DNA of 57,729 bases from Lentibacter sp. XHP0401. Lineage in GTDB: Bacteria; Pseudomonadota; Alphaproteobacteria; Rhodobacterales; Rhodobacteraceae. The notes below the pieces were generated by a model. The model searched no databases. It worked only from the letters and a program-made list of their open reading frames with translations, and was not told where the DNA came from. Numbering within the stretch: position 1 is the stretch's first letter; each line of letters starts with the position of its first letter. Positions 10,452 through 57,412 of this stretch are shown here, one piece after another. Location: the NCBI RefSeq assembly GCF_025751535.1, contig NZ_JAOWLC010000016.1, positions 1 to 57,729 of the forward strand, read 5' to 3'. A program made the translations under genes and the position numbers.

Positions 10452-11441
10452 ATGAACATGAAAGAGCAAGGACGGGTGGCGCAACTGCCCCAGACAACCG
10501 AGCGGCGCAACGAAGGCTCGCCGCTTGATCTGGATTGGGTGGCGCGAGTGCAGGCCAACACATCAGCGATCGAGCGGCGGGCGGGAACGCTGGGTGCGCG
10601 ACGCTCTGTGAAGAAGGCGCATCAGGCGGCTTGGCTTTTGAAGGCGGTCACCTGCATTGACCTGACCACCCTTGCGGGAGATGACACGGCGGGGCGGGTT
10701 GCACGGCTATGTGCCAAGGCGCGCCAGCCTGTGCGCGAGGATATTCTTGAGGCGCTCGGCATGGGGCCGATCACTGTTGGCGCGGTCTGTGTCTACCACG
10801 ATATGATCGCGCCTGCGGTGGAGGCTCTGGCGGGGTCAGGTATCCCGATTGCTGCTGTGAGCACGGGTTTTCCGGCGGGGCTTTCGCCGTTTCATCTGCG
10901 CGTGAAAGAGATTGAAGAGAGCGTGAAAACTGGGGCTAGCGAGATTGATATCGTGATTTCGCGCCGGCATGTTCTGACGCAGAACTGGCAGGCGCTTTAC
11001 GACGAAATGCGCGCCTTTCGCGCGGCCTGTGGTGACGCGCATGTGAAGGCGATTTTGGCGACTGGCGAGCTTGGAAGCCTGCGCAATGTGGCGCGGGCGA
11101 GCCTGATTTGCATGATGGCGGGAGCCGATTTTATCAAGACCTCGACAGGCAAGGAAAGCGTTAACGCGACCCTGCCTGTGAGCCTCGTGATGATCCGCGC
11201 GATACGGGAATATGAAGCCGCGACGGGTATTCGCATCGGTTACAAACCCGCAGGCGGGATCAGCAAAGCGAAGGACAGCTTGGTCTACCTGAGCCTGATG
11301 AAAGAAGAGCTGGGCGACAGATGGCTTCAGCCTGATCTTTTCCGCTTTGGGGCATCAAGTTTGCTGGGTGATATCGAGCGGCAGTTGGAACATTATGTGA
11401 CGGGGGCCTACTCGGCCTCATACCGTCATGCGGCGGGGTAA
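10452..11441 (+). CDS. deoC: deoxyribose-phosphate aldolase
   Basis: 329-residue class I aldolase that splits 2-deoxyribose 5-phosphate into glyceraldehyde 3-phosphate and acetaldehyde. The Schiff-base lysine is K229 in ADFIKTSTGK, the second lysine K265 in GYKPAGGI, and the acid/base residue D166 in EIDIV. The protein is longer than E. coli DeoC (~260) because of an ~60-residue N-terminal extension, as in animal-type DERA enzymes. The start at 10452 lacks a perfect ribosome site, and 46 more codons are open upstream, so the exact N-terminus is uncertain. The ALDH16 gene begins 4 bp after its stop, an obvious route for disposing of acetaldehyde. Confidence 0.93.
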   Translation: MNMKEQGRVAQLPQTTERRNEGSPLDLDWVARVQANTSAIERRAGTLGARRSVKKAHQAAWLLKAVTCIDLTTLAGDDTAGRVARLCAKARQPVREDILEALGMGPITVGAVCVYHDMIAPAVEALAGSGIPIAAVSTGFPAGLSPFHLRVKEIEESVKTGASEIDIVISRRHVLTQNWQALYDEMRAFRAACGDAHVKAILATGELGSLRNVARASLICMMAGADFIKTSTGKESVNATLPVSLVMIRAIREYEAATGIRIGYKPAGGISKAKDSLVYLSLMKEELGDRWLQPDLFRFGASSLLGDIERQLEHYVTGAYSASYRHAAG

Positions 11442-11445
11442 GGCT

Positions 11446-13794
11446 ATGACAGTTAAAGAGATCTTCGAGAGTATGGACTACGGCGAAGCGCCCGAGAGCG
11501 CGGCGGAGGCATTTGCCTGGATCACCGATAATGGCGCGCGGTTCGGGCACTTCATCGACGGCGCATTTACCGAGGCGGGAGAGGGCTTTTTGAGCCGCAA
11601 TCCGGCCAACGGCGAGACGCTGGCAACGTTGACGCAGGCGAGCGTTGCGGATGTGGATATGGCGGTGACTGCGGCGCGCAAGGCGCAGCCGAAATGGGAG
11701 AAGCTTGGCGGCCACGGGCGGGCGCGGGTGCTTTATGCGATTACACGATTGCTCCAGAAGCACAGCCGCTTGTTTGCGGTGCTTGAAACCCTCGACAACG
11801 GCAAGCCGATCCGTGAGAGCCGCGATATTGATATCCCGCTTGTTCAGCGACATTTTTACTATCATGCGGGCATGGCGCAGTTGATGGAAAGCGAGCTGCC
11901 TGACGCCGAGGCGCTGGGCGTTTGCGGGCAGATTATCCCCTGGAACTTCCCCCTTCTGATGCTGGCGTGGAAGGTCGCGCCTGCGCTTGCGATGGGCAAT
12001 ACTGTGGTGTTGAAACCAGCAGAATACACCTCTCTGACCGCGCTTTTGTTTGCCGATATTTGCCGTCAGGCGGGGCTTCCCAAGGGGGTTATCAACATTG
12101 TCACGGGCGATGGCGCTGTTGGTGAAATGATCGTAAAGCACAGCGATATCAACAAGATCGCCTTTACCGGCTCGACCGAAGTGGGCCGCAAGATACGCGC
12201 GGCTACGGCGGGGAGCGGCAAGGCGCTGACGTTGGAGCTTGGCGGGAAATCTCCCTACATTGTGTTTGACGATGCAGACCTTGATTCAGCCGTGGAAGGG
12301 CTGGTTGATGCGATCTGGTTTAACCAAGGGCAGGTTTGCTGCGCTGGCTCACGCCTCTTGGTGCAAGAGGGTATTGCAGAGACGTTTTATGCCAAGCTCA
12401 AAGCTCGGATGAACAAGCTGCGGGTCGGCTCGCCTATGGACAAGTCGATTGATGTTGGGGCGATTGTGGACCCTGTGCAGCTGAAATTGATTGAAGGCAT
12501 GATCGCAGGCAATGATGAAGGAAGTCTTTACGCGGCACCCGTGGAGCTGCCAGCGGAGGGGAGTTTCTATCGACCAACGCTGATCACGGGGCTTTCGCCC
12601 TCTTCAAAGTTGATGCAGGAAGAGATTTTCGGGCCTGTTTTGGTGGCCATGACCTTCCGCACGCCAGACGAGGCGGTGAGCCTTGCCAACAACACGCGCT
12701 ACGGGCTTGCGGCGACGGTGTGGAGCGAGAATTTGAACCTTGCTCTCGACATAGCGCCCAAGCTTGCGGCGGGGGTTGTCTGGGTGAATGCGACCAACCT
12801 TTTTGATGCGGCTGCCGGCTTTGGCGGGGTGCGCGAAAGCGGGTTTGGGCGCGAGGGCGGATGGGAAGGCTTGCAGGCCTACACGAAGCCCAAGGGCAAG
12901 CTGAAAACGCTGTCCAAAGTCGAGCCGAATGCGGGCAAAGGCGGGCTGGAAAGCGGCGTGCTCGACCGCACCGAAAAGCTCTATATCGGCGGCAAGCAGG
13001 TGCGGCCTGATGGCGGCTATAGCCGCGAGATTTTTGCGAAAAACGGCAAGCTTGTATCGCAAGCGCCGATAGCGGGCCGAAAGGATATCCGCAACGCTGT
13101 CGAGGCCGCGCGCGGGGCGGCTGGCTGGAGCAAAACCACGGGGGCTTTGCGCGCGCAGATCCTTTATTATATGGCCGAAAACCTTGAAGCGCGCGGCGCG
13201 GAATTTGCCCGCCGTATTGACGCGATGAAGGGCGGAAAGAGCGGCGCTAAGGAAGTTGAGACCTCTGTGAAACGGCTGTTTTCCTATGCCGCTTGGGCGG
13301 ATAAATATGACGGTGCGGTCAAGGGTGTTCCGATCCGCGGGGTGGCGCTGGCGATGCGTGAGCCGATAGGTGTTTTGGGCGCGTTTTGTGATGATGCGCA
13401 CCCGCTTTTGGGGCTTGTCTCGGTGATGGGGCCAGCGCTTGCGATGGGCAACAGATGTGTGCTTGTGGCGAGTGAGGCCTACCCGCTGGAGGCGCTGGAT
13501 ATGACGCAGATTCTGGAGACATCCGATGTGCCTGCGGGGGTTGTAAACCTGCTGACAGGGAGACACGGCGAACTGGCCAAGCCGCTGGCGAGCCACATGG
13601 ATGTGGATGCTGTCTGGAGCTTTTCATCGAGCGATATTTCTGCCGGAATCGAGGCGGAAAGTGGCACGAATTTGAAGCGCACATGGGTTAATAACGGCTA
13701 TGCGCGCGACTGGTTTGGTGCCAGTGGTGAGGGCCGGGAATTCCTTGCTCAGGCGACGGATGTGAAGACCATTTGGGTGCCTTACGGGGAGTGA
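11446..13794 (+). CDS. ALDH16-type two-domain aldehyde dehydrogenase
   Basis: 782-residue NAD(P)-dependent aldehyde dehydrogenase with two ALDH domains in tandem. Residues about 30-480 form a complete catalytic domain with general base E264 in LELGGK and nucleophile C298 in FNQGQVCCAG. Residues about 505-782 form a second, shortened ALDH-like domain without a catalytic cysteine. This is the ALDH16 architecture; a bacterial member from Loktanella, also a Rhodobacteraceae genus, has been characterised structurally as active. Position directly behind deoC suggests that it oxidises acetaldehyde to acetate in deoxyribose catabolism. The ATG at 11446 follows an AAGG site. Confidence 0.9.
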   Translation: MTVKEIFESMDYGEAPESAAEAFAWITDNGARFGHFIDGAFTEAGEGFLSRNPANGETLATLTQASVADVDMAVTAARKAQPKWEKLGGHGRARVLYAITRLLQKHSRLFAVLETLDNGKPIRESRDIDIPLVQRHFYYHAGMAQLMESELPDAEALGVCGQIIPWNFPLLMLAWKVAPALAMGNTVVLKPAEYTSLTALLFADICRQAGLPKGVINIVTGDGAVGEMIVKHSDINKIAFTGSTEVGRKIRAATAGSGKALTLELGGKSPYIVFDDADLDSAVEGLVDAIWFNQGQVCCAGSRLLVQEGIAETFYAKLKARMNKLRVGSPMDKSIDVGAIVDPVQLKLIEGMIAGNDEGSLYAAPVELPAEGSFYRPTLITGLSPSSKLMQEEIFGPVLVAMTFRTPDEAVSLANNTRYGLAATVWSENLNLALDIAPKLAAGVVWVNATNLFDAAAGFGGVRESGFGREGGWEGLQAYTKPKGKLKTLSKVEPNAGKGGLESGVLDRTEKLYIGGKQVRPDGGYSREIFAKNGKLVSQAPIAGRKDIRNAVEAARGAAGWSKTTGALRAQILYYMAENLEARGAEFARRIDAMKGGKSGAKEVETSVKRLFSYAAWADKYDGAVKGVPIRGVALAMREPIGVLGAFCDDAHPLLGLVSVMGPALAMGNRCVLVASEAYPLEALDMTQILETSDVPAGVVNLLTGRHGELAKPLASHMDVDAVWSFSSSDISAGIEAESGTNLKRTWVNNGYARDWFGASGEGREFLAQATDVKTIWVPYGE

Positions 13795-13831: not shown

Positions 13832-13957
13832 CAGCTTGGTTAACGGCGCTGGAAACGGCTCATTCCAGGGGGGTGATATGCGTGCACATGCCGTGCACCA
13901 TGCGTGCACCGCGAAATCGGAAACGTATTAACGCGAGTTAAGTTAATGCGGCGTGCG
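13832..13957 (+). repeat. ~125-bp paired intergenic element with three GTGCAC boxes, copy A
   Basis: It begins CAGCTTGGTTAA, continues through TTCCAGGGGGGTGA, then has GTGCAC at 13882, 13893 and 13904 (11-bp steps), and ends near AATGCGGCGTGCG. Copy B at 56070-56194 has the same landmarks at nearly the same distances: 50 against 49 bp to the first box, and 63 bp in both from the first box to the AATGC end block. No open frame is shared. It lies in a convergent gap (ALDH16 and M16 genes). Confidence 0.75.
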
Positions 13958-14046: not shown

Positions 14047-15345
14047 TCAGAGGCCTTCGGGCTGGCCGACGACTGTGAAGCTGAGAAGCTCCGGCTTGAG
14101 ATATTCGCGGGCGACGCGATTGACTTGCTCCAGCGTTACCGCATTCACACGGTCATTTCGGGTGGCGATGTAATCGGTCCCCATGCCTTGCATTTGCATG
14201 CCGACAAGGATGTTGGCGATCGGGCCGTTGCCATCAAACCGCAGAGGATAGGCGCCTGTGAGGTAGCGCTTGGCGTCTTCCAGTTCTGTTTCAGTGACGC
14301 CTTCGCTCTGCATCCGTGCCCACTCGGCTTTTATCACTTCCATGGCCTCACCGACGCGGTTGTTGGCGGACTGAACCGAGCCGAGCCAGACATCTGCGCC
14401 GTCTTTATCGACAAGGTAGGAGTAAACCCCGTAGGTGAGGCCGCGCTTTTCGCGGACCTCTTGCATGAGGCGGCTTTCAAACCCGCCGCCACCGAGGACG
14501 ACATTGAGCAGGTAGGCGGCGAAATAATCGGGGTGATCAAACGGGACGCCGGGCTGGCCGAACATAGCGACGGACTGGGGTGTCTCGAAGGGAATGATGA
14601 CTGTTTCGCCGTCAAACGCGGGTGTGGCATCGGCGGGCAGGGGCGCGCCTGTGTCGGGGATACCGGCGAGCAGCGCATCAAGGATCGGGCCGAGTTCGTC
14701 GCGGGAAATATCGCCGACGACGCCTATATAGAGCCTGTCTTTGGCCACAGTTGCTTTGAAGGCGGCGAGAAGATCATCGCGCGTGAGAGCGGAGACTGTC
14801 TCGATGCTGCCGCTTTTGTCGGAGCCGTAGGGGTGGCTTCCATAAATGCGTGCATCGAAGGCTTGCCCTGCGATTGAGCTTGGGTCTTTTTCATCGGAGC
14901 GGATGCCCGAGATGACTTGTGCACGGACGCGCTCGATGGCGTCTTGATCAAAGCGGGGGCTGGTGAGGGATTGGCGCAGAAGCTCCAGTGCCTCGGCGCG
15001 GTTTTCGGAGAGGAATTTGGCGGAGACTGTGAGGGTATCGTCATAGACGGAATAGGAGAAGGAGGCGGCGAGGGCATCGCGGGCCTTGGCAAATTCGCGG
15101 GCGTCAAGATCGCCCGCGCCCTCTTCGATGAGGCCTGTCATAAGGTTGATTGCGCCGCGCTTTTCGGGCGTATCAAGCGATGCACCGCCTTTGAAGCGCA
15201 GTTCAAGCGCGACGAAGGGGATGCTGTTTTCCTCGACATGCCAGACGGTGAGGCCACCCTCGGTTTTGAACGCGTCGATGGTGACTTCGGCCATGACGGG
15301 GAGGGCGAGGGCAATGCTGAAACAGGCGGCGAGAAAAGCTCTCAT
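14047..15345 (-). CDS. M16-family peptidase-like protein, no zinc motif
   Basis: 432-residue periplasmic protein with a signal peptide (about residues 1-19, cut after PVMA). It has the two-lobed M16 fold, and the C-terminal lobe carries the typical REKRGLTYGVYSYL segment. Where catalytic members have HxxEH, this protein reads NLMTGLIEE, so it cannot bind zinc in the usual way. It starts inside the last codon of the active M16 gene upstream (4-bp overlap), as expected for the non-catalytic subunit of a heterodimer like the mitochondrial processing peptidase pair. Confidence 0.88.
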   Translation of the reverse strand: MRAFLAACFSIALALPVMAEVTIDAFKTEGGLTVWHVEENSIPFVALELRFKGGASLDTPEKRGAINLMTGLIEEGAGDLDAREFAKARDALAASFSYSVYDDTLTVSAKFLSENRAEALELLRQSLTSPRFDQDAIERVRAQVISGIRSDEKDPSSIAGQAFDARIYGSHPYGSDKSGSIETVSALTRDDLLAAFKATVAKDRLYIGVVGDISRDELGPILDALLAGIPDTGAPLPADATPAFDGETVIIPFETPQSVAMFGQPGVPFDHPDYFAAYLLNVVLGGGGFESRLMQEVREKRGLTYGVYSYLVDKDGADVWLGSVQSANNRVGEAMEVIKAEWARMQSEGVTETELEDAKRYLTGAYPLRFDGNGPIANILVGMQMQGMGTDYIATRNDRVNAVTLEQVNRVAREYLKPELLSFTVVGQPEGL

Positions 15346-52692: not shown

Positions 52693-52731
52693 ACAGGGCT
52701 TGTGCAGCGCGTGCGGGCTGCATAGGTTGAA

Positions 52732-52816
52732 CTTACCTCGGGGGGCTCATGTGAGCTGAGATGCGAAAGCGGACCCGTTGAACCTGAACCGGTTAGGACC
52801 GGCGGAGGGAAGGTCG
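52732..52816 (+). promoter_or_regulatory. TPP riboswitch (thi box)
   Basis: The conserved aptamer core is present: GCTGAGAT at 52755-52762, ACCCGTTGAACCTGA at 52773-52787, the CCGG…CCGG stem, and CGGAGGGAA at about 52803-52811. ACCT (52735) and AGGT (52811) can close P1. It lies in the leader of thiBPQ, whose start codon is about 50 bases downstream. It most likely shuts expression off when thiamine diphosphate is plentiful; whether by transcription or translation is not clear. Confidence 0.93.
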
Positions 52817-52863
52817 GATATTCATCCCACTATCTCCGCCCGTCGCAATATGAGGAGGATGAG

Positions 52864-53847: not shown

Positions 53848-55367
53848 GCAAGGCCACCAGCGCGGTAACGGCTGCGCTGGTGCTCTTGTTGGTGCTGGTT
53901 CCTATCGGGGCTGTGAGCCTGCGCGCGGGATGGCCAGAGGCCCTGGTGGTGGCGGATTGGGCGGCGCTGAAGTTTACGATCTTGCAGGCGGTTCTCTCGG
54001 CTTTGTTTAGCGCAGCGTTGGCTGTGCCTGTGGCACGCGCCCTTGCGCGGCGGCAGTTTTATGGACGGGGCGCGCTTGTTTTGCTTATGGGAGCACCGTT
54101 TATTTTGCCTGTTATTGTGGCCGTGATGGGCCTTTTGGCAGTTTTTGGACAAGGCGGTTTTTTGAATGAGGGGCTGAGCGCTCTGGGCCTGCCAAGAGTA
54201 CAAATTTACGGGCTGCACGGAGTTGTCCTGGCGCATGTTTTTTTCAACCTGCCACTGGCAACACGGCTTTTGCTGCAAGGCTGGGAAAGTATTCCGCAGG
54301 AGCGGTTCCGCCTAGCGGCGAGCCTTGGGATGGGTCCGCGAGAGGTGATGCGGCGGTTGGAACTGCCGATGCTGAAAGAACGGTTGCCCGCTGTGCTTCT
54401 GGTGGTTTTTCTCATATGCCTCAGCAGCTTTGCTGTAGCGCTAACGCTTGGTGGCGGACCTGCGGCGACAACACTGGAGCTTGCGATCTATCAGGCGTTT
54501 CATCTGGAGTTTGATCTTGGGCGGGCGGCACTTTTGGCGCTTGTGCAGTTGGCTCTGGTGCTTGGCGTGGGGCTTATCGCGCTACAGCTTGGGCGGGTGG
54601 CCGGATTTGGAGCGGGGCGGGGTGCTGTGCGGCAAAGGTGGGATGCGGGCGCGCGTTGGCTGAGAGTGCAGGATGGGCTGGTGCTTGGGCTTGCCGTATT
54701 GTTTATTATGCTGCCTCTGGTGATGGTTGCTGTGCGCGGTGCGGGGCAGGTTCTGAGCCTGCCTGCTTCGGCCTGGAGCGCGGCGTTGGCCTCGGTCATC
54801 ATTGCGCTTTGCTCGACTGTTTTGTGTATAGCAGCGGCGCTTGCGCTGGCCTCTGCACAGGGGCGCGCCGCCGAGGTGATCGGGCTTTTGGGCTTGGCGA
54901 TTTCGCCTCTTGTTTTGGGCACCGGATTGTTCCTTCTGATCAACCCCTACGCGAGCCCGCAGGCGCTTGCCTTACCTATTACAATGTTGGTGAATGCCTT
55001 GATGGCGCTGCCCTTTGCGTTGCGGATCATTGCGCCTGAATATGCCCGTGCGGAGGCAGACTTTGGCCAGCTTGCCGATGCTTTGGGGCTGCGCGGATTG
55101 GCACGTATGCGGCGGATGATATGGCCGCAGATCCGCGCCAGCCTTGGCTTTGCGGCGGGGCTGGCAGCGGCGCTTTCTATGGGCGACTTGGGCGTTATCG
55201 CGCTTTTTGCCGACGGGGAAACCGCCACTTTGCCGTTGCAGGTTTATCGCCTGATGGGGGCCTACCGTATGGAGGCGGCAGCGGGGGCGGCGCTTTTGTT
55301 GGTCATGCTGAGCTTTGGCCTTTTTGCGGTGTTTGATTGGGGAGGGCGGCGCGGTGCTGACGCTTGA
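53823..55367 (+). CDS. thiP: thiamine ABC transporter, permease
   Basis: 514-residue inner-membrane permease made of two fused copies of the ABC permease unit, about 12 hydrophobic segments in all. EAA-type coupling loops are visible at RFRLAASLGMGPREVMRRLELPML and, in the second half, ADALGLRGLARMRRMIWPQIRASLG. It overlaps thiB by 25 bp and thiQ by 14 bp, so the three proteins are translationally coupled. Confidence 0.93.
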   Translation: MARRAVAISKATSAVTAALVLLLVLVPIGAVSLRAGWPEALVVADWAALKFTILQAVLSALFSAALAVPVARALARRQFYGRGALVLLMGAPFILPVIVAVMGLLAVFGQGGFLNEGLSALGLPRVQIYGLHGVVLAHVFFNLPLATRLLLQGWESIPQERFRLAASLGMGPREVMRRLELPMLKERLPAVLLVVFLICLSSFAVALTLGGGPAATTLELAIYQAFHLEFDLGRAALLALVQLALVLGVGLIALQLGRVAGFGAGRGAVRQRWDAGARWLRVQDGLVLGLAVLFIMLPLVMVAVRGAGQVLSLPASAWSAALASVIIALCSTVLCIAAALALASAQGRAAEVIGLLGLAISPLVLGTGLFLLINPYASPQALALPITMLVNALMALPFALRIIAPEYARAEADFGQLADALGLRGLARMRRMIWPQIRASLGFAAGLAAALSMGDLGVIALFADGETATLPLQVYRLMGAYRMEAAAGAALLLVMLSFGLFAVFDWGGRRGADA

Positions 55368-56052
55368 GAATGTGAGATACGAGCAGGACGGATTTGTGCT
55401 TGCGGCAGATTTCAGCCTTGAGCCTGAAGCTCGGGTGGCCGTGATCGGTCCGTCAGGCGCGGGCAAATCGACTCTTCTGGCGCTCATCGGCGGGTTCATA
55501 GCGCCGCAGCGTGGACGGGTGCTTTGGCAGGGTCAGGACATCACCAAAAACGCACCAAGCGCGCGGCCGGTGGCGAACTTGTTTCAGGAGGGGAACCTTT
55601 TCCCGCATTTGAGCGTGTACGAGAATGCAGCCTTGGGCGTTAATGTGAGCTTAAGGCTGAGCGCTGCGGAGAATGAGCGCGTTATGGGGGCTTTGGAACG
55701 GGTCGGGTTGAAAGGCTATGAGGCGCGCAAGCCTGCCCAGCTTTCGGGCGGTCAGGCGAGCCGTGCAGCACTTGCGAGAGCGCTTTGCCAAGACAAGCCG
55801 CTGCTATTGCTCGACGAGCCTTTTGCGGCGCTTGGCCCTGCATTGCGCCGCGAAATGCTTGATCTGGTTGGCGAAATTGCGAGCGAACATAGGCGCGCTG
55901 TGCTTATGGTGAGCCATGAGCCGCGCGATGCGAAGCATTTTGCGCAGCGCGTGATTGTGGTTGCCGATGGTGTTGCTGAAGCGCCGCGAGAGACGGCAGA
56001 GTTGTTTGCCAACCCACCGCGCGCGCTGAAAGACTACCTCGGAGATGGCTGA
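55354..56052 (+). CDS. thiQ: thiamine ABC transporter, ATP-binding protein
   Basis: 232-residue ABC ATPase. Walker A GPSGAGKST is near residue 32, signature LSGGQASRAALARAL near 130, Walker B LLLLDEPFAALGP and the H-loop SHEPRDA follow. GTG at 55354 is the likely start, eight bases after GGAGG; an upstream ATG at 55315 is inside thiP. It drives thiamine import with ThiB and ThiP. Confidence 0.93.
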   Translation: MLTLENVRYEQDGFVLAADFSLEPEARVAVIGPSGAGKSTLLALIGGFIAPQRGRVLWQGQDITKNAPSARPVANLFQEGNLFPHLSVYENAALGVNVSLRLSAAENERVMGALERVGLKGYEARKPAQLSGGQASRAALARALCQDKPLLLLDEPFAALGPALRREMLDLVGEIASEHRRAVLMVSHEPRDAKHFAQRVIVVADGVAEAPRETAELFANPPRALKDYLGDG

Positions 56053-56069: not shown

Positions 56070-56194
56070 CAGCTTGGTTAATGGCAGCGAAAGCGGTTGA
56101 GTCCAGGGGGTGAAACATGTGCACCCTGCGTGCACAAACCGTGCACCGCCTAAATCGAAAAGTGTGAAGTGGAATTAGTTCAATGCAGCGTGCG
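56070..56194 (+). repeat. ~125-bp paired intergenic element with three GTGCAC boxes, copy B
   Basis: Same landmarks as copy A at 13832: CAGCTTGGTTAA start, TCCAGGGGGTGA, GTGCAC at 56119, 56130 and 56141 (11-bp steps), AAATCG, and an AATGCAGCGTGCG end block 63 bp from the first box. It again occupies a convergent gap (thiQ and the MFS gene). Confidence 0.75.
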
Positions 56195-56197
56195 CCA

Positions 56198-57412
56198 CTA
56201 CTCGGCAGGCACAAGACGCCGCGCGCCGAGGCGGGGGTGCAAGGTGCTTGAGATGATCCAAGCGCAAATGAAGGCGCCGCTTGTGAGCAGGAAGATCCCC
56301 GACACAGGCGCAACCAGCAGCACGGCCCAGGACAAGCCGGGCGTGAGGATGCCCGAGACATCACGATAGGAGGAATAGACGGCTGACATTTCGGTGCGTT
56401 CCGATGGCTTGACCGCCATAAGGAAGGGCAGGCCTGCGCAGACATCGAGGGTGATGAGAAAGACCGACGCGAGGAACAGAGCGGCGAGGGCCAGAGGCGG
56501 GAAGGACTCAAGCAAGCCCCCGAGCGCGAACAGCAGGGCCGCTGCCATGAAACCTGTGCGCACAGCAAAGCGGACGGAGCTCATTTGCATCAGTTTAAGG
56601 ATGAGCGGCGAGGCGAAGAGCGTGGCGTTTGTGATGGATAGAAGCAAGCCGCCAAGCTGGTCGCTGAGGCCGTTTTGCACCGCGTAGATCGGCAGGTAGA
56701 CGACATAGGCCCACCAACCGCAGGAGCGGATGACCGCAAAGGAGAAGCCTGCAATAAGGCGGGGCTGTGCGGCAAAGCGGGCAAGGAAGGCGAGAGGATT
56801 GGGCGAGGCGCGGCGCGCACGGGTGATGAGCTTGCCGTTGCCAAGGCGCATGTAAAAGAAGATCGCCATCATGGTGAGGGCCGAAGCACCCGAAAGGATG
56901 AAAGGCGCCGGTTGCCACCATGTGTAAAGCGAGATGCCGATAAGGGGTCCACCTGTCCAGCCGAGAGCGGAATAAACCATGCGCAATGTTTCGCTGCGGC
57001 CAAGCTCGATGCGCTTGATGTAGTCGAGGACATAAGCGTTGAAACAGACAAAGGTGATGACAGTGGCCATGGCATTGAGCGCGAGGGCAGGGACAATGCC
57101 GTGCGGCCCAAGGACGATGGCCAAAGCGCAGCCGAGTGCAAAGAGGCTTGCGCCAAGCGCATAAAGCCAGCGCCGGGGAATGAAGCGGTTGAGGTAGGGC
57201 ACAAGCAAGCCGACAGCAAGCGAGGCAAGGCCAATATAGAAATAGACTTCGCTCACAGCAGAGGCGCTGCCAAGGGCCTCGTAAAGCGCGATAGGAAAAA
57301 CAGAAATGAGCATACCACGAGTGACGCCTTCAAGCCCCGCAAGAAGAGCGAAACCATGCACAGAGGGGGCTGGCGCGTGGCGGAGCCACTCGGGGATACG
57401 GCGTTCAAACAT
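56198..57412 (-). CDS. MFS transporter
   Basis: 404-residue major facilitator superfamily protein with about 12 hydrophobic segments. A short amphipathic N-terminus precedes the first membrane helix near residue 20. The cytoplasmic loop after helix 2 has a basic RFIPRRWLYALG segment, and the central loop (RLGNGKLITRARRASPNPL) separates the two six-helix halves. No substrate motif is recognised. It converges on thiQ across the GTGCAC element, but nothing ties it to thiamine. Confidence 0.85.
   Translation of the reverse strand: MFERRIPEWLRHAPAPSVHGFALLAGLEGVTRGMLISVFPIALYEALGSASAVSEVYFYIGLASLAVGLLVPYLNRFIPRRWLYALGASLFALGCALAIVLGPHGIVPALALNAMATVITFVCFNAYVLDYIKRIELGRSETLRMVYSALGWTGGPLIGISLYTWWQPAPFILSGASALTMMAIFFYMRLGNGKLITRARRASPNPLAFLARFAAQPRLIAGFSFAVIRSCGWWAYVVYLPIYAVQNGLSDQLGGLLLSITNATLFASPLILKLMQMSSVRFAVRTGFMAAALLFALGGLLESFPPLALAALFLASVFLITLDVCAGLPFLMAVKPSERTEMSAVYSSYRDVSGILTPGLSWAVLLVAPVSGIFLLTSGAFICAWIISSTLHPRLGARRLVPAE

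Follow-up and report, generated by a model that had tools for sequence, protein, structure and literature searches.

What do short non-coding elements do that repeat the palindrome GTGCAC three times at 11-bp steps, and which protein would recognize them? The question is raised by two gaps between convergent genes in the window, the 57,729-nt stretch of Lentibacter sp. XHP0401 DNA analysed here (contig NZ_JAOWLC010000016.1). An earlier note, made from the letters of the window, had described two such elements of about 125 bp; both are present at the positions it gave, and all six of its box starts are exact (Table 1). A search for the GTGCAC triple allowing up to three mismatches found two places in the window, where 0.07 would be expected. 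The copies share 72% identity, and copy 2 is the orthologue of a copy at 2,828,619 on the closed chromosome of a congener, G394. With a GC skew of +0.143 over the window, the plus strand is the G-rich strand for copy 1. An Rfam scan of the window also found a TPP riboswitch at 52729-52827 (+), whose 68 bits are well over the gathering score of the family.

Table 1. Coordinates of the two elements and their parts in the window
Feature	Position	Strand	Context or basis
Element copy 1, about 125 bp	13832..13957	+	gap between convergent predicted genes 11428-13794 (+) and 14047-15345 (-)
Left TTAAC block CAGCTTGGTTAACGG, copy 1, weaker conservation	13832..13846	+	column counts of own copies, positions -34 to -27
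Polar leader GGGGGG-TGA, copy 1	13868..13876	+	near-invariant in 57 aligned own copies and other genera
Box 1 GTGCAC, copy 1	13882..13887	+	triple search, own-copy profile, orthologous pairs
Box 2 GTGCAC, copy 1	13893..13898	+	triple search, own-copy profile, orthologous pairs
Box 3 GTGCAC, copy 1, then kept CGC(C)	13904..13909	+	triple search, own-copy profile, orthologous pairs
Right AT-rich tail TATTAACGCGAGTTAAGTTAATGCGGCGTGCG, copy 1, weaker conservation	13926..13957	+	own-copy profile, positions +56 to +87
Element copy 2, about 125 bp	56070..56194	+	gap between convergent predicted genes 55315-56052 (+) and 56198-57412 (-)
Polar leader GGGGG-TGA, copy 2	56106..56113	+	sequence
Box 1, copy 2	56119..56124	+	triple search
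Box 2, copy 2	56130..56135	+	triple search
Box 3, copy 2	56141..56146	+	triple search

Copies in the genome and beyond

Searching the whole genome, as the earlier note had proposed, revealed many more copies, and the two in the window turned out to be 2 of 58. A pattern search gave 57 places where the triple occurs with no more than two mismatches, 53 of them exact, and none for the reversed-pattern control. Sequence model R1 matched 58 places, the own copies matching partly by construction because alignment A2 behind the model includes 21 of them together with 18 of 21 other copies. Blastn with copy 1 as query gave 40 scored places in the same genome, and three congeners contain 56, 52 and 49 copies according to model R1. 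The core of the element is about 48 bp long, consisting of GGGGGGTGAWAWGC and the three GTGCAC boxes at 11-bp steps, and occurs 58 times in the 3.7 Mb of the own genome at a mean distance of 64 kb. In a profile of 57 own copies (the remaining one lies too close to a contig end), conservation extends from about -3 to +50 and reads GGGGGGTGAWAWGC, GTGCAC, five nucleotides ending in C, GTGCAC, five nucleotides ending in C, GTGCAC and CGCC. Weaker TTAAC-type blocks flank this core, making up the length of about 125 bp first reported, and conservation fades farther out; the left TTAAC block is mostly missing from the copies displayed for other genera. Many own copies carry GATTC to the left and GAATC to the right of the array, at about -12 to -5 and +43 to +48 from the leader, and others have AAAAC there; GANTC is the methylation site of CcrM.

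Across a sample with one genome per genus, a strict pattern occurred in 20 of 394 genomes, and model R1 matched 32 of 384 genera at E<=0.001, with counts per genome that are lower bounds since at most 15 copies were scored in each. A scan of 84,980 species genomes gave at least 96 stretches, and the named ones among the matches listed belong to the Roseobacter group, except for one metagenome-assembled genome (MAG) labelled Flavobacteriia. The names among the matches listed are Lentibacter, Roseobacter, Leisingera, Thalassovita, Roseovarius, Loktanella, Sulfitobacter, Zongyanglinia and unnamed Rhodobacteraceae. The exceptional MAG, AQU-04 (L137, L141, L145 and other JAHBAN records), has contigs that agree in number and size with those of the Roseobacter MAG AQU-03, and is probably mislabelled. 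Four Sulfitobacter plasmids contain one core each (NZ_CP136685.1, NZ_CP084956.1, NZ_CP045373.1 and NZ_CP139702.1), and the plasmid core of S. indolifex has a RidA-family gene on one side and an ankyrin-repeat gene on the other. Three viral contigs (L230, L231 and L232) show a leader-plus-two-box pattern once each.

A candidate BrnA-family binder and its box dialects

One own copy, at C28:76182 on a contig outside the window, lies between prfC and a gene of about 129 codons (C28:75673-76062), which is just 3' of the array on the same strand. The product of this gene matches PF14384 BrnA_antitoxin (E=1.4e-12) and no other Pfam family; PF14384 is a ribbon-helix-helix (RHH) family. Proteins of two other species of the genus, G395 and G397, match PF14384 as well. 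The structure predicted for the RHH protein from its single sequence was of poor quality (mean pLDDT 48), and a sequence search of solved structures with it gave chance matches only.

A profile of this protein was run against 80 hand-chosen genomes, namely seven of the genus, 31 other array-positive and 42 array-negative ones. Any RHH match was found in 24 of the 31 array-positive and 13 of the 42 array-negative genomes (P=0.0001), and strong matches (E<1e-39) in 12 and one (G009), respectively (P=0.00007). All 15 genomes outside the genus with at least eight scored arrays have an RHH match, and the seven array-positive genomes without a match to the profile hold only one or two copies, compared with 1 to at least 15 in the other 24 (P=0.0003). 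Relatives of the RHH protein on plasmids number three, all distant.

Thirty RHH loci were fetched, and an RHH frame was found in 28 of them (not in G032 and G106). Reading these promoters by eye, we found a regular phased array in the direction of the gene in 24 of the 28; the array of G009 is irregular and CGGCTG-like, and no promoter array was visible at the BrnA-family genes of G001, G003 and G035. Judged by ORF lengths at 22 loci, no consistent ORF follows the RHH gene, and at six of these loci, one of them near a contig end, no same-strand ORF of at least 55 aa starts between -60 and +250 nt of the RHH stop. Going by these sequence comparisons, the arrays are likely bound by one BrnA-family RHH protein that has no evident toxin partner. 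We infer that the RHH protein binds the boxes and autoregulates, as is the case for centromere-binding proteins of plasmid partition and the iterons in front of their operons (PMC5016525).

The promoter arrays are written in different dialects. In most of them the boxes are GTGCAC, GTACAC or a mixture, usually spaced at 11 bp, while G377 and G349 have CGGCTG at 11 bp behind the common GGGGGTGAC leader, G070 has a GTGCAC/CGGCTG hybrid, and G395 and G397 have GTGCAT at 12 bp. In 21 genomes, the promoter array was set against a dispersed array from elsewhere in that genome; the summed identity was 661/840 against 540 expected, and none of 100,000 permutations was as high, in a test that favours GTGCAC-like dialects because the dispersed sites were picked by model R1 or earlier patterns. 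The match likewise held with one genome per genus (18 genomes). The test used 21 of the 30 RHH loci, leaving out G009, G394, G398, G399, G001, G003, G035, G032 and G106; the clearest matches were seen in G256, G284, G208, G186 and G011, and in G349 the CGGCTG dialect of the promoter differs from the dispersed copy tested. The residues of the predicted RHH strand also vary with the dialect, being (K/R)TRVT(V/I/L)RLD with GTGCAC, KERVTIRLD with CGGCTG and the hybrid, and KERITIRLD in the 12-bp genomes; this correlation is suggestive only, because G284 reads TERVTLRLD with GTACAC boxes.

The prfC gap offers a view of how dialects change within the genus. Four species have GTGCAC boxes at 11 bp in this gap; the boxes of G396 are GTACAC/GTACAC/GTGCAG with steps of 13/12 bp, those of G395 are GTGCAT with 12-bp steps, and those of G397 are of RTGCA type with steps of 12/12/11 bp. 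The orthologous gap of G063 (L298) contains four boxes of CATGCA/CATACA/CGTACA type at 11-bp steps, a dialect outside model R1. In G395 and G397, the RHH gene beside prfC is absent, and another BrnA-family protein is encoded instead, in the neighbourhood that corresponds to the second BrnA-family paralogue of the own genome on contig C23; in both species the gene of this other protein has a GTGCAT 12-bp array in its own promoter. The second paralogue of the own genome (C23:194620-194958 (-); L056 773-1165) has a different 12-bp repeat in its promoter, GGGCAANCTGTA-like and with two to three units by eye, which suggests a separate dialect within one cell.

Searches with the 12-bp pattern gave 77 forward matches for G395, 39 for G397 and none for the reversed-pattern control. 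The same pattern matched G394 once forward and twice in reverse, and did not occur in 1.23 Mb of own DNA. In addition to the arrays in the prfC gap, six sites with 12-bp steps from G395 and G397 were compared, together with their 3-kb flanks, with the DNA around own copies: L324 and L316 share a gap with an own-type array, L331 and L326 are near an own-type array in another gap, and L314 and L330 gave no match. Thus, the set of sites looks rewritten in these two species, partly in place.

Orientation, spacing and age of the arrays

The leader makes each array polar, and its orientation could be compared with that of replication. Mirror readings of each palindromic array were dropped and the strand with the better leader was kept, and mirror rows with two mismatches were likewise dropped when the other genera and G394 were compared with skew. 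In the own genome, the GGGGGGTGA strand is the strand of positive GC skew for 57 of the 58 copies, with skew taken from the 15-20 kb around each copy or, for the two copies in the window, from the entire window. Skew is weak (below 0.04 either way) at six of the 58, including the sole disagreement, and is 0.05 or more at the remaining 52. The core itself contains 16 G and 15 C, and therefore its base composition does not force this orientation. Nor does transcription, because the flanking genes, viewed in the orientation of the element, are convergent at 21 copies, tandem the same way at 15, tandem the opposite way at 14 and divergent at seven, with one copy unclassified.

On the closed chromosome of G394 (3,281,784 bp), 45 of 52 copies are on the strand expected for two replichores, with arcs and origin inferred from the strand pattern and local skew. 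This two-arc split has breakpoints at 1.39-1.53 Mb and 2.94-3.02 Mb, and 300 random strand sets fitted 35 copies on average and no more than 42. The sign of skew matches orientation in 38 of 42 copies of G394 (40 stretches examined) and in 19 of 21 copies of G200, G038, G355, G073 and G396, and four G200 copies in gaps without a matched own copy still agree with skew. The pattern was moderately clear in G395, where strand runs by contig majority accounted for 37 of 50 listed arrays (173 of 20,000 shuffles as high) and a test on neighbouring arrays gave 28 of 45 (539 of 10,000 shuffles as high). In two stretches of G397, skew agrees at L326 (+0.084) and is mixed around L316. L326 was also considered as a flipped array in the gap of a wrong-strand G394 copy, and this was rejected since the two arrays flank opposite ends of one gene and thus occupy different gaps.

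The seven wrong-strand copies of G394 are in 20-kb stretches of near-zero skew (-0.04 to +0.03), whereas the other copies examined are at +0.07 to +0.17, except for one with a wrong-strand copy 8 kb away. Weak-skew own copies are the orthologues of five of the seven, and a sixth lies about five genes off the orthologous place of another; because of this orthology, the wrong-strand copies probably mark old inversions. All three boxes are exact in five of the seven, a single base differs in another, and the last has two boxes only. Since wrong-strand copies retain intact boxes, strict polarity is not essential at each site, and the wrong orientation has been tolerated for long. Divergent strand switches in the own contigs were also considered as five separate replicon origins, and this was rejected: each borders a weak-skew copy, mostly corresponding to the wrong-strand copies of G394, and most read as old inversions.

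The copies on G394 are also spaced more evenly than expected, with a mean gap of 63 kb; the CV is 0.67, compared with 0.97 when copies are placed at random (P about 0.001). They are found on both arms and number 16, 12, 15 and 9 in successive quarters of the distance from the inferred origin. Two long stretches of G394 are free of arrays, C1:2145456-2374263 (229 kb) and 1187527-1387093 (200 kb).

We consider it probable that the arrays are double-stranded DNA binding arrays of the BrnA-family RHH protein, which would regulate its own gene and have in addition a role on the scale of the chromosome. Alternatively, the RHH protein may be a global transcription regulator and the arrays its dispersed operators, at which it would act as a repressor, a roadblock or an insulator where transcription units end. 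The array in the RHH gene's own promoter fits such a regulator, as does the autorepression by antitoxins of the BrnA family (BrnA/BrnT; excerpt of PMC5086665), and among gaps of 125-1200 bp convergent ones are enriched (18/51 element gaps vs 42/243 others, P=0.007), as for a bidirectional roadblock. However, divergent gaps are rarer among the same element gaps (7/51 vs 64/243 others, P=0.07), orientation tracks replication and not the flanking genes (convergent 21, tandem 15+14 and divergent 7 of 57), and the spacing on G394 is more even than random. On balance, we find a regulator of this kind unlikely.

A second alternative concerns polar fork barriers like Tus-Ter, which would let origin-derived forks pass and stop backward ones. 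The chromosome-wide polarity is the arrangement expected of sites permissive to origin-derived forks, and an asymmetric leader could make a multi-box array block forks coming from one side. But wrong-strand copies with intact boxes persist in two species, at places where normal forks would be blocked, and the quarters given above show copies on both arms and not mainly near the terminus, which leaves such barriers quite improbable. The comparison with Tus-Ter is one of orientation pattern.

The age of the arrays bears on the other alternatives. For 37 of 42 G394 copies examined, the array adjoins an orthologue of a gene flanking an own copy, with equal relative orientation; the orthologous proteins of the two species have a mean identity of 85%. 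The claim that boxes are kept and spacers changed was borne out by 36 of these 37 pairs (one was too short): box positions are identical in 630 of 648 cases (97.2%) and the first four spacer bases in 137 of 288 (47.6%). The G-run and TGA are identical at 283 of 288 positions (98.3%) and the last spacer base at 95.8%, the right 40 nt of the element at 62%, and gap DNA outside the element at 2437 of 5832 (41.8%). Comparison with the DNA near own copies placed at least six of 21 copies from other genera in a gap that also holds an own copy. Identity between any two of the 58 own copies is at most 79% (126 nt compared, ungapped), with a median of 54%; thus, there has been no recent copying. Shared gaps, kept boxes and diverged spacers indicate an old, vertically inherited DNA element, neither an RNA nor recently mobile, in agreement with the initial view of a phased, iteron-like protein-binding array under selection and not a recent duplication.

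Remnants of a mobile or REP-like element with strand-preferring insertion, for example via the single-stranded lagging-strand template, are accordingly very improbable. Strand-biased insertion could yield polarity, and many dispersed copies, including one on each of four Sulfitobacter plasmids, would suit such an element. Yet 37 of 42 positions are common to the two species, near-identical copies are missing from the own genome, and the appearance of another box and period in the same gap of relatives is unexplained by transposition. An element derived from a MITE, REP or IS200/605 was rejected for the same shared positions and lack of near-identical recent copies; target-site duplications were judged from the column profile of own copies only. 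A structured RNA or small-RNA family, which the earlier note, having described conservation in non-coding DNA, had kept as its other option, is barely credible: GTGCAC boxes can pair into 6-bp hairpins, but the box1:box2 stem has no compensatory change (6 pairs in the 39 sequences compared), no Rfam family matched the element in scans of the window and four loci, orientation is independent of the transcription of neighbouring genes, and a stem of 6 bp is impossible for the 12-bp GTGCAT dialect of relatives.

A possible role and its relation to known systems

If the arrays are indeed bound by the BrnA-family protein, RHH dimers would sit side by side on the 11-bp-spaced boxes, on one face of the helix, and the G-run/TGA leader would confer direction on the array. 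The protein would repress or tune its own gene through the promoter array, and would also occupy about 50-60 further arrays, mostly away from promoters and pointing in the direction of replication. Such nucleoprotein landmarks would most likely be used for organising or segregating the nucleoid, or for sensing direction along the replichore. Because the arrays follow the direction of replication, are rather scarce in divergent promoter gaps and show a spacing more regular than chance would give, we infer, albeit more weakly than binding and autoregulation, that the dispersed arrays may serve the chromosome and not nearby genes. Segregation, nucleoid organisation, fork traffic and titration may all be considered candidate roles alike.

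Several known systems share features with these arrays. ParR and MatP are both RHH proteins, and KOPS are short G-rich motifs of 8 bp, far more frequent than the arrays described here. ParR/parC is a type II plasmid partition system, whose operon also encodes an actin-like motor, ParM. SlmA and Noc regulate division and bind DNA sequence-specifically (PMC4726725). Their chromosomal sites are dispersed, as the arrays are; to our knowledge, however, these sites are single operators without replication polarity, and the two proteins are unrelated to RHH proteins. In ParR/parC, each tandem iteron is bound by a ParR dimer and the array doubles as the operator of the partition genes (excerpt of PMC5016525). 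Like this system, the one proposed here would combine an RHH-type protein with a tandem direct-repeat array at its own promoter (24 of 28 homologues, by eye); unlike it, it is chromosomal, with about 58 dispersed three-box arrays in place of one centromere and a protein of the BrnA family. The 13-bp matS site occurs 23 times in 800 kb of the Ter macrodomain of E. coli (excerpt of PMC3330122). MatP/matS and the arrays have in common repeated chromosomal sites with a dedicated DNA-binding protein, here a candidate one, but the arrays are polar, phased and on both replichores, and the candidate protein matches PF14384 only.

KOPS are small oriented repeats along which DNA moves toward dif, and the excerpt of PMC7901474 that describes them holds nothing on the array motif. 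Orientation along the replichores toward the terminus is the sole feature shared with KOPS; the arrays differ in being about 48 bp long, on average 64 kb apart and only 58 in 3.7 Mb, with a likely dedicated RHH binder. BrnAT is known to autoregulate (excerpt of PMC5086665), and the candidate binder has the BrnA RHH domain (PF14384). No partner toxin such as BrnT is evident from downstream ORF lengths at the 22 loci, and dispersed arrays are not described for BrnAT in that excerpt. In the open-licence PMC literature searched, also with ParR and BrnT in view, no description of such a system was found. By the features tested, the arrays are not KOPS, matS or a mobile element.

More tentatively, and at a confidence somewhat short of even, the Roseobacter group may possess a directional landmark system, in which arrays of an antitoxin-derived RHH protein would stand about every 60 kb on both replichores, lineage dialects would co-evolve with the protein, and a paralogue taking over would bring a rewritten set of sites, some of them at the old positions. 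If true, a major marine bacterial group would have a site-specific, chromosome-scale system that arose from an antitoxin-type repressor, and this would be a rare case of one protein co-evolving with more than 50 chromosomal sites as a set. The purpose of replichore-polarised sequences would then become directly testable and, if chromosome organising is proven, the arrays and their protein would stand beside MatP/matS as a system of that broad kind.
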